From contig NZ_CP159404.1 of assembly GCF_040500525.1 (NCBI RefSeq), positions 525,001-589,000 on the forward strand: a stretch of DNA of 64,000 bases. The letters are read 5' to 3'. Under the pieces are notes generated by a model that saw only the letters and a list, made by a program, of their open reading frames with translations, did no database searches and was not told the origin of the DNA. The position numbers and the translations under genes are program-made. This stretch comes from Azospirillum formosense. GTDB lineage: Bacteria > Pseudomonadota > Alphaproteobacteria > Azospirillales > Azospirillaceae. Each line of letters starts with the position of its first letter. The first letter of the stretch is position 1. Shown here piece after piece: positions 60,822 to 63,799 of the stretch.

Positions 60822-61004
60822 GTGATCCACAAGATCATGGACAAGATCGACCGCGTCATCGCCCAGAAGCGCGAGAGCGGCGAGCTTGATGCTTGGCTTT
60901 CAAACGGCATGGCGCGCCGTTACTGCCAGGAACTGACGGCTTCACAGAAGCACTATTATCCCGCCTTGCTGCTGTACGTGGAACGGCGCGCCGGGATCGG
61001 TTGA
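60822..61004 (+). CDS. Small hypothetical protein, 60 aa
   Basis: GTG 60822 with AAGGA upstream opens a 60-aa, mostly helical product: (V/M)IHKIMDKIDRVIAQKR at the start, then an Arg/Tyr-rich end. A longer reading of the frame from 60564 lacks a ribosome site. It is too small to assign, but the site and helical content favour a real gene. Confidence 0.55.
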   Translation: MIHKIMDKIDRVIAQKRESGELDAWLSNGMARRYCQELTASQKHYYPALLLYVERRAGIG

Positions 61005-61309: not shown

Positions 61310-61532
61310 AGCGCCATAGGATGGGTGCGGCAGGGTCGAAGGAAAAGCCCCGAAGCGTTGGCAGTCACCGCGATTTACCCTTCGCGACGCTCTTCCGTAA
61401 CGAGAGAGATCTGCGTTCCGCACGGCGTATCGTTGTGCCACACCTATTCATGGTAGCGAGCGCTTTCTATCGTGGGTTTAATTTGCTAAAAGGGCGAGCA
61501 AGGATTCATGTGCTGACTTAAAGGGTGAAGAA

Positions 61533-63632
61533 ATGGCCACGACCATTGCGAAGCTGTCCATCGCCGCGACCTCGCCATCGCAGGCGGAGGGCAACTCCGG
61601 GTCGACGCCATTCACCTTCACGGTGACGCGCACGGGCGACACCTCGGGCAACTCCTCGGTCGACTACCGAGTGATTGGCTCCCTACTCGTGGCCGGCAGC
61701 GAAAGCGAAGCCGATGCGGCCGACTTCGTCGGCGGCGAGTTTCCAAAAGGCACGGTGACCTTCGCTGCGGGCGAGACTTCGAAGACGATCACCATCAACG
61801 TCGCGGGCGATGCCGATGCCGAGGTCAACGAGGGCTTTGCCGTCGTCCTGATCGACCCGGTCGGCGCGATCACCGGCGCCGATAACGTTGCCCACGGCCT
61901 CATCCTCAACGACGACAGCGGCTCACCGCCGCCAAAGCTGTCCATCGCCGCGACCTCGCCATCGCAGGTGGAGGGCAACTCCGGATCGACGCCATTCACC
62001 TTCACGGTGACGCGCTCGGGCGACACCTCGGGCAACTCCTCGGTCGACTACCGAGTGATCGGAACCATTCTTGCGCCCGGCAGCGAAAGCGAAGCCGATG
62101 CTGCCGACTTCGTCGGCGGCGTTCTTCCGAGGGGCACGGTGAGCTTCGCTGCGGGCGAGACTTCGAAGACGATCACCATCAACGTCGCGGGCGATGCCGA
62201 TGCCGAGGTCAACGAGGGCTTTGCCGTCGTCCTGATCGACCCGGTCGGTGCGATCACCGGCGCCGATAACGTTGCCCGCGGCCTCATCCTCAACGACGAC
62301 AGCGGCTCACCGCCGCCAAAGCTGTCCATCGCCGCGACCTCGCCAGCACAGGTGGAGGGCAACTCCGGGTCGACGCCATTCACCTTCACGGTGACGCGCT
62401 CGGGCGACACCTCGGGCATCTCCTCGGTCGACTACCGAGTGATCGGAACCATTCTTGCGCCCGGCAGCGAAAGCGAAGCCAACGCGGCCGACTTTGTCGG
62501 CGGAGTGTTTCCAAAAGGCACGGTGACCTTCGCCGCGGGCGAGACCTCGAAGACGATCACCATCAACGTCGCGGGCGATGCCGATGCCGAGGTCAACGAG
62601 GGCTTTGCCGTCGTCCTGATCGACCCGGTCGGCGCGATCACCGGCGCCGATAACGTTGCCCGCGGCCTCATCCTCAACGACGACGCTATGGCACCGCGCC
62701 GCTGGCGGGGGCCGGATTTCACGGGCGACGGGACGTCGGACATTCTCCTGCGGAATGGGACGACGGGCCAGCTCGCGGTGTGGAGCATGGCGAACTTCGC
62801 GGCGTCGGGGGCGGTGGTCGGGGCGGTGGCGCCGGTGGACTGGCAGGTTCAGGGGCTGGGCGACTTCGACGGGGACGGCAAGGCCGACCTGCTCTACCGT
62901 CACACCGGCAGCGGCGACATCGCGGTGTGGACGATGGACGGGGCGTCGGTGAAGAGCGCCGCGTTGGTGGGGAGCAGCCTGGACCCGCGGTGGAGCGCGG
63001 TGGCGACGGGCGACTTCACCGGCGACGGCAAGACCGACATCCTGTGGCGCAACAGCGAGACCACCGAGGTCGGGCTGTGGGAGATGAACGGGACGACGGT
63101 GACCCGCGCCGCGGCCTTCGGGTCGATCCCGTCGGAGTGGGTGGCGGTGGGGGCCGCCGACCTGACCGGCGACGGCAAGGCCGACATCGTCTGGCAGAAC
63201 ACCCGGACCAACGACACCGGACTGTGGGAGATGGACGGCACCACGGTGGTGCGCACCGGGCTGATCGCGTCGAACAGCGACGCCAACTGGCGGATCGGCG
63301 GTCTGGCCGACCTGGACGGCGACGGCAAAACCGACCTGGTCTGGCGCAACCAGGCCACCGGCCAGGTCGGTCTGTGGAAGATGGACGGCTTCACCGTCAC
63401 CCAGGCCAAGGTGCTCGACAGCATCCCCGACGAGTGGGCGATCGCCGGCACCGGCGACTATGACGGCGACGGGCGCGTCGACATCCTGTGGCGCAACGGC
63501 CTGGACGGCACCATCGCCGCCTGGCGCTCCGTCGATCAGAACGGCGCCATCGGCGCCGACCCCAGGGTCATCGCCAACGCCGCCGGCTGGGACCCCGTCC
63601 GCATGGCCGGAACCCTCGCCGGAGCCGGATGA
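61533..63632 (+). CDS. Calx-beta and FG-GAP/VCBS repeat protein, probable surface or secreted protein
   Basis: A 699-aa acidic protein without a Sec signal. Residues 7-134, 135-262 and 263-390 are three near-identical Calx-beta units (EGNSGSTPFTFTVTR; TVTFAAGETSKTITINVAGD; LILNDD). Residues about 394-690 hold six FG-GAP/VCBS units of the type DFTGDGKTDILWRN, with DxDGDG calcium-binding loops and W-x-M-D-G spacers. Such proteins are exported by type I or similar systems and mediate adhesion or matrix contacts; export cannot be proved here. GGTGAAG lies before the ATG. Confidence 0.88.
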   Translation: MATTIAKLSIAATSPSQAEGNSGSTPFTFTVTRTGDTSGNSSVDYRVIGSLLVAGSESEADAADFVGGEFPKGTVTFAAGETSKTITINVAGDADAEVNEGFAVVLIDPVGAITGADNVAHGLILNDDSGSPPPKLSIAATSPSQVEGNSGSTPFTFTVTRSGDTSGNSSVDYRVIGTILAPGSESEADAADFVGGVLPRGTVSFAAGETSKTITINVAGDADAEVNEGFAVVLIDPVGAITGADNVARGLILNDDSGSPPPKLSIAATSPAQVEGNSGSTPFTFTVTRSGDTSGISSVDYRVIGTILAPGSESEANAADFVGGVFPKGTVTFAAGETSKTITINVAGDADAEVNEGFAVVLIDPVGAITGADNVARGLILNDDAMAPRRWRGPDFTGDGTSDILLRNGTTGQLAVWSMANFAASGAVVGAVAPVDWQVQGLGDFDGDGKADLLYRHTGSGDIAVWTMDGASVKSAALVGSSLDPRWSAVATGDFTGDGKTDILWRNSETTEVGLWEMNGTTVTRAAAFGSIPSEWVAVGAADLTGDGKADIVWQNTRTNDTGLWEMDGTTVVRTGLIASNSDANWRIGGLADLDGDGKTDLVWRNQATGQVGLWKMDGFTVTQAKVLDSIPDEWAIAGTGDYDGDGRVDILWRNGLDGTIAAWRSVDQNGAIGADPRVIANAAGWDPVRMAGTLAGAG
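61551..62703 (+). repeat. Three tandem 384-bp repeats inside the Calx-beta gene
   Basis: Units start at 61551, 61935 and 62319 (period exactly 384 bp = 128 codons) and are almost identical at DNA level, with clustered differences around the GSLLV/TILAP segment. The third unit differs at its final codons, where the FG-GAP part begins. Confidence 0.93.
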
Positions 63633-63677
63633 GCCGGGTGAATGAAATCCGATCCAAGTTGCGTTCTGGCAAGGAGG

Positions 63678-63719
63678 CCAGCCCGCAGGGCGGCACGGCC
63701 TCCCCTGGGCTGGATTTTG
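63678..63719 (+). terminator. Possible terminator after the Calx-beta gene
   Basis: CCAGCCC (63678) pairs with GGGCTGG (63707) and ATTTTG follows; the loop is 22 bases and has internal pairing options. Weak, but placed 45 bases after the stop. Confidence 0.4.
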
Positions 63720-63799
63720 CGTAAGCGGCTGATCGCGATTGTGGCTCAACCTCCGCTGACCGCTCCCGCGAACGATCAAAGATATCAGGCCCCAGGAAT

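Follow-up and report, generated by a model that had tools for sequence, protein, structure and literature searches.

Calx-beta repeats and an apparently converted C-terminal propeller in an inserted gene of Azospirillum formosense

Calx-beta arrays, FG-GAP propellers, gene conversion, and domain exchange are all known singly; their combination across contigs, as described here, is new as far as the literature searched shows. Lectins of the Psathyrella velutina type have seven blades. These GlcNAc lectins (PDB 2bwr, 4up4) have the propeller fold in common with the module described below (Z 15-16), but they are fungal and free-standing. Closer to it is UmbA4 from the umbrella particles of Streptomyces coelicolor (PDB 9oee), which also has a six-bladed propeller at its C-terminus. 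According to the published account, residues W668, Y551, and N633 of the UmbA4 propeller contact glycan, each having been tested by mutation, and pocket positions diverge among the UmbA4 blades too (PMC13274773). The likeness is confined to the propeller, since UmbA4 carries a trypsin-like domain and a bulb lectin ahead of it, where the protein described here carries Calx-beta units; no umbrella-particle genes are claimed for the present genome. Calx-beta domains occur in secreted proteins of plant-associated bacteria, and the adhesin LapA is said to have a Calx-beta domain together with RTX repeats (PMC10574481). In contrast to LapA-type adhesins, our protein has no RTX match and ends in a propeller. 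No paper linking FG-GAP or Calx-beta modules with gene conversion was found, and this absence is weak because subscription journals lay mostly outside the coverage of the search.

The window analysed is a stretch of 64,000 nucleotides from A. formosense, corresponding to G000:C3:525001-589000 in a genome of 6.1 Mb and six contigs. Towards its end lies a gene with the following features (window coordinates):

61353..63799, no strand assigned: inserted segment, 2447 bp here and 35-73 bp at the same site in relatives
61353..61532, plus strand: leader on the 5' side of the coding sequence, 51% G+C against 69% for the window
61533..63632, plus strand: inserted gene for a 699-aa protein, three Calx-beta units followed by a C-terminal FG-GAP propeller (open reading frame, translation, and Pfam)
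61551..61934, plus strand: Calx-beta unit R1, 384 bp, private differences chiefly at unit positions 126-142
61935..62318, plus strand: Calx-beta unit R2, 384 bp, private differences chiefly at unit positions 189-209
62319..62702, plus strand: Calx-beta unit R3, homologous to R1 and R2 across its first 366 bp (up to 62684)
62694..63632, plus strand: six FG-GAP units forming the C-terminal module, stop codon included; 99.3% identity to the end of an RTX protein on contig C5
62982..63204, plus strand: tract of 223 bp, 100% identical in a third module (protein C5:173898-179057)
63673..63712, plus strand: possible terminator hairpins 3' of the gene, not better than shuffled sequence

How did the gene come to lie at this site? 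Relatives were chosen through the adjoining DMT-transporter gene: of the 44 other genomes of the genus, 12 encode a close relative of it (E<=1e-60), and the syntenic region of each was compared. In 11 of them the sequence on either side of the site aligns collinearly at 90-94% identity, and the empty site can be read directly: 35-73 bp lie between window positions 61350-61352 and 63800, as against about 2447 bp in the window. The site of the twelfth relative (G018) is unreadable because similarity stops at 60997. The neighbours of the insertion, according to the annotation of NZ_CP032347.1, are a DUF1289 gene on one side and a small hypothetical gene on the other, the latter adjoining a cache-domain/chemotaxis-receptor gene. 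The simplest reading of these alignments is that the gene arrived as one piece, replacing intergenic DNA; its loss from all other relatives would be less likely. The longest exact matches between the two insertion ends are 7 bp (direct) and 6 bp (inverted), which 137 and 191 of 200 shuffles matched; being no better than chance, they give no sign of a target-site duplication or a terminal inverted repeat. Neither insertion end, the 5' leader included, has a second copy in the genome, and no sigma-70-like promoter site was found in the leader, where candidates were no better than shuffled sequence.

The intergenic spot itself is variable, as the 73-bp empty site of one relative (G035, locus L064) contains a partly duplicated TCAGGGCGCCACGCGCTCGGACA segment. 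On the 3' side of the gene, about 95 bp of the window (63643-63737) are 76% like unannotated DNA in plasmid records of A. brasilense and are possibly a shared terminator-like element.

The 699-aa protein begins with MATTIAKLS, and no Sec signal or hydrophobic N-terminal signal is visible by eye. The Pfam Calx-beta family (PF03160) matches it in three stretches (E 1.7e-16, 60.8 bits against a cut-off of 27); taken singly, the units score 27.1, 24.3, and 24.1 bits, and one of the three passes the cut-off alone. The FG-GAP part is matched by FG-GAP_3 at E 1.9e-29, with PF13517 at 102.5 bits (cut-off 26.9) and PF01839 at 95.8 bits (cut-off 22.1). PF12256 (TcdB_toxin_midN) also matched, and Foldseek listed Tc-toxin chains; both were taken to reflect the shared FG-GAP/propeller repeat, and no toxin is claimed.

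The initial annotation described three near-identical 384-bp Calx-beta repeats, with variation clustered in short segments, ahead of FG-GAP units that have diverged from one another. The present analysis bears out this description, with "almost identical" amounting to 94-95% in DNA. Tandem Repeats Finder (TRF) reports an array at 61551-62684 with a period of 384, 3.0 copies, 94% matches, no indels, and a score of 2058, and a 21-base probe with one N occurs three times in the window against a mean of 0.00 in 100 shuffles. The terminal 18 bp of R3 (62685-62702) lie outside the repeat, 11 of the 18 bases being unlike both R1 and R2, so that the comparable unit length is 366 bp. Over this length R1 differs from R2 and from R3 at 21 positions each, and R2 from R3 at 18 (94.3, 94.3, and 95.1% identity). 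Twenty of the 30 variable columns fall within one 90-bp stretch, a degree of clustering that none of 10,000 random placements reached. The private differences of all three units lie largely in blocks, those of R3 at unit positions 163-186 and 216-228, with others scattered. This arrangement looks like the product of short conversion patches. No donor of the R2 patch was seen, its 30-base pattern occurring, with up to 3 mismatches allowed, in R2 alone. The target of a diversity-generating retroelement was considered and rejected: the variation is not adenine-specific, and at just 15 of the 30 variable columns does any copy have A.

Have the units expanded recently, as the initial annotation proposed? 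In a tree with 93 other Calx-beta units from the same genome and its relatives, R1-R3 cluster tightly together and separately from the rest (support 100/99, few columns), which points to expansion or homogenisation inside this gene. An origin of the units within the gene is thus upheld, but expansion and homogenisation are indistinguishable. Unit pairs differ by a dS of 0.105-0.135 and a dN of 0.023-0.044 (NG86).

Arrays of this kind are present in some related loci and missing from others. TRF (period of at least 60, score 200) found an array in eight of 13 loci (L107 and L109 among these represent a single A. thermophilum gene) and none in the other five, which include three Calx-beta loci of relatives (L103-L105). 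The closest Calx-beta units belong to a partial protein of 307 aa from another genus of the family (G081, L111:3-923), in which no signal is visible. Near its N-terminus it has two 366-bp units (2.0 copies, 99% identical), but it runs on into RTX repeats, not FG-GAP, before being cut by the contig end. The A. thermophilum plasmid protein WP_109334304.1 resembles the window array in having tandem Calx-beta units (348 bp, 2.9 copies), yet these are just 75% alike and 116 aa long, as against 128 aa in the window protein. Elsewhere on contig C3 of our genome, a giant open frame (L045:761-6665, G000:C3 ~252760-258664) contains 19.9 copies of a 297-bp unit at 93%.

More interesting than the repeat is the shared, apparently converted C-terminal propeller that the inserted gene carries. 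The module closes six proteins of the genome, namely the window protein and five encoded on contig C5. Its closest partner is the C-terminus of a 1238-aa protein (C5:186360-190076) that carries RTX repeats along with a single Calx-beta domain and differs elsewhere from the window protein: 932 of 939 bp are identical over 62694-63632. Similarity to this partner drops to background at the first base 5' of the block (PRRWRG) and directly after the stop codon, and the modules of the other paralogues begin and end at the same limits. At the codon level, the two modules show five synonymous differences and one amino-acid difference (P/V). All but one of the seven mismatches are found within the outer 100 bp, a limit picked post hoc (binomial 9e-6; counted as five events, four of five, 6e-4). 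Conversion seldom extends to the ends of homology, so mismatches at the module ends are what it is expected to leave.

A third module, that of the protein C5:173898-179057, has a mosaic structure. Beside the 223-bp identical tract, its identity to the window module is 193 of 288 bp (67%) before and 359 of 425 bp (84%) after; at fourfold sites the two differ at 15 of 29 before, 0 of 44 inside, and 8 of 66 after the tract, which was delimited from the same data. The longest identical run of this module spans 128 polymorphic sites, and none of 5000 shuffles for each pair reached the run shared with either of the other two, in a test that takes no account of uneven constraint along the module. Among the remaining pairs (15 were tested in all), the window module and C5:189 gave p 0.0036, two C5:75 pairs gave 0.007-0.010, and the other ten gave at least 0.086. 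The third module thus contains an identical tract within diverged homologous flanks, beyond chance; together with the sharp limits and the mismatches near the ends, this mosaic bears the signature of gene conversion among C-terminal modules already in place. Modules of this kind, at 41-54% identity, also close three further C5 proteins.

Which part of the gene changed last? The Calx-beta units differ from one another by a dS of at least 0.10, whereas the two modules differ at 7 of 939 bp. If clocks are equal, the exchange of the FG-GAP module would be younger than the Calx-beta duplication, the event so dated being the last homogenisation. These figures do not bear out the initial annotation in restricting change to the Calx-beta part: the FG-GAP module is 99.3% shared with another contig, and by synonymous change it was exchanged more recently than the units were duplicated.

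An AlphaFold2 model of the module alone, built on an alignment of 24 sequences, has a pLDDT of 89.6, a pTM of 0.88, and 24 strands arranged as six blades of four, and the module is confidently predicted to be a six-bladed propeller. By contrast, the single-sequence model of the whole protein was unusable (pLDDT 49.9). A phmmer search of the PDB with the whole protein gave nothing at 0.01. In the Foldseek list for the module there are many chains that we take to be propellers. By VIA-align the model has the fold of propeller lectins: the best match is 9oee_A, titled UmbA4 with S. griseus TUA (Z 30.9, rmsd 2.6, 304 aligned residues, 19% sequence identity), and the next are the fungal PVL-type GlcNAc lectins.

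A numbering offset of 31 was the sole one of 60 tried that places the letters of W668, Y551, and N633 correctly on the 9oee chain. With it, UmbA4 W668 aligns with the blade-motif tryptophan of the module, and Y551 lies two columns off the motif tryptophan in the printed alignment, with a local motif that is alike. The motif tryptophan is present in all six blades of the window module, is invariant across the six paralogues, and, in an alignment of 24 rows that includes the window module, is kept in 18 to 24 according to the blade. The correspondence with W668 favours a lectin, short of proof; alternatively, the blade tryptophan may be structural and not in contact with sugar.

The module is not sharply confined to its own genome, to judge from searches of related sequences. 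At E<=1e-50 it is found in one of 82 genomes of the order, its own, but weaker relatives are widespread, and the nearest in the genus (G006, 42% identity, 3.8e-49) falls just past that limit. A DNA search with the module gives matches in all 45 genomes of the genus at E<=1e-3; most of the matches listed are pieces of tens of bases and were taken for chance or common blade motifs. The window protein finds some match at E<=1e-3 in 40 of the 45 genus genomes (own included), and no orthologue was seen among them. For the Calx-beta part, 19 matches outside its own genome are listed at E<=1e-60, with identities of 46-59%; most are pieces of larger proteins. No close relative of the whole protein was confirmed in named genomes, where plasmid records reached less than 60% identity.

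Scanning with the paralogue alignment gave at least 360 related stretches, of which 80 were kept. Among these, 72 have an open frame with the stop seen; the stop comes within 15 residues of the match in 43, within 60 in 53, and more than 150 residues further on in 16. The module is often the C-terminal part of its protein. Inspected by eye, several of the kept relatives have a Sec-like signal at the start, and in others RTX repeats come first; the module thus marks no single export route.

How might the proteins that carry it be exported? RTX repeats occur in four of the five C5 paralogues, and one of these four also has a serralysin-type domain; the fifth paralogue has VWA. Behind the VWA paralogue lie an HlyB-like ABC protein (C5:76699-79095), scoring 677 bits and below the TIGR01846 cut-off of 725.55, and an HlyD-family adaptor (C5:79111-80457; TIGR01843, 280 bits, cut-off 208.65). 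Only one of the six module proteins adjoins transporter genes; the window gene does not. A type I substrate would be expected to combine the lack of a Sec signal with C-terminal RTX repeats, and the window protein, which has no match to RTX (PF00353), lacks the second of these.

Contig C5 is apparently circular, as a 403-aa open frame runs through its ends. Nine of ten C5 proteins picked by eye belong to families of sugar-nucleotide synthesis, sugar activation, glycosyl transfer, or ABC transport, and the tenth matches no family at 1e-10. Several other C5 loci were observed in passing. An RTX region (L041:3593-6662, G000:C5 ~87592-90661) contains 2.4 copies of a 1257-bp unit at 98%, a recent multi-domain duplication. 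Two adjoining RTX proteins with DUF4347 and similar N-termini (L113:1101-6780, G000:C5 158100-163779) are possibly a recent pair. A serralysin-type protein (L042:3659-6028, G000:C5, and L159) starts with the cysteine-rich segment CGCPLCQ, and in Azospirillum soli a similar start, CGCPMCQ, stands ahead of a related FG-GAP module.

We give about an even chance to the following explanation. The gene would encode a two-part, secreted, surface-type protein, with a Calx-beta stalk and an exchangeable lectin-type propeller that is homogenised across unlike proteins by conversion. The units of the stalk were multiplied or homogenised within the gene, and the propeller would have been exchanged by gene conversion between pre-existing C-terminal modules on different contigs. 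Export of the protein would be by the type I route that is expected for its RTX paralogues, and its propeller would bind a glycan. Several secreted proteins would then share one glycan-binding tail, kept uniform by conversion. The tail is perhaps matched to the cell's own polysaccharide, because C5, which has the five other modules, also has sugar-nucleotide, glycosyltransferase, and export genes; the case that the propeller binds this polysaccharide is thin, with the sugar genes on C5 as its basis. A bolder version, which we regard as doubtful, is that the C-terminal lectin anchors unlike secreted proteins to the polysaccharide encoded on the plasmid-like contig C5 and that inter-replicon conversion keeps the tags matched while this polysaccharide evolves. 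It is just as doubtful that such surface-display tags would be maintained by concerted evolution and not by sorting enzymes.

Could simpler events account for the locus? A single illegitimate recombination may have copied the C-terminal segment from one contig to another, with seven changes acquired since. A recent copy with few mutations would likewise yield 99.3% identity, and the identity does lie in a single block, with no similarity between the two genes just outside it. However, both limits of the block are the module start and the stop codon, as in the modules of the other paralogues; moreover, the mismatches crowd at the block ends, and the third module has an internal converted tract. 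We consider a single duplication rather unlikely. Ordinary expansion, in which the number of Calx-beta units shifts by slippage or unequal crossing-over and the remainder of the gene is static, appears less probable again. It would agree with three units that are 94-95% identical, with the near-identical arrays of 297-bp and 1257-bp units in the same genome (19.9 copies at 93% and 2.4 copies at 98%), and with the 366-bp array of G081 in another genus. Against this, synonymous change makes the FG-GAP part the younger one, the unit differences are largely private blocks that conversion patches fit better, and the relatives without an array (L103-L105) indicate that such arrays are not the rule. 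Finally, short-read assembly can go wrong at repeats of 0.4-0.9 kb, and the repeat or the shared module might have been misassembled or collapsed. This is very improbable in an assembly of six contigs for 6.1 Mb in which C5 seems to close on itself, the units and modules have distinguishing differences, and the flanks match relatives.

The locus offers a caution, in that near-identical tandem repeats, however eye-catching, may be older than other parts of the gene in which they lie. On the reading that conversion homogenises the propeller, the shared module suggests that bacteria can hold one exchangeable tail uniform over unrelated surface proteins. If this is true, the bacterium would build new surface proteins by joining unlike front parts to one uniform propeller tail, which would open a testable question about the ligand of that tail, and whether or not it is the cell's own coat.
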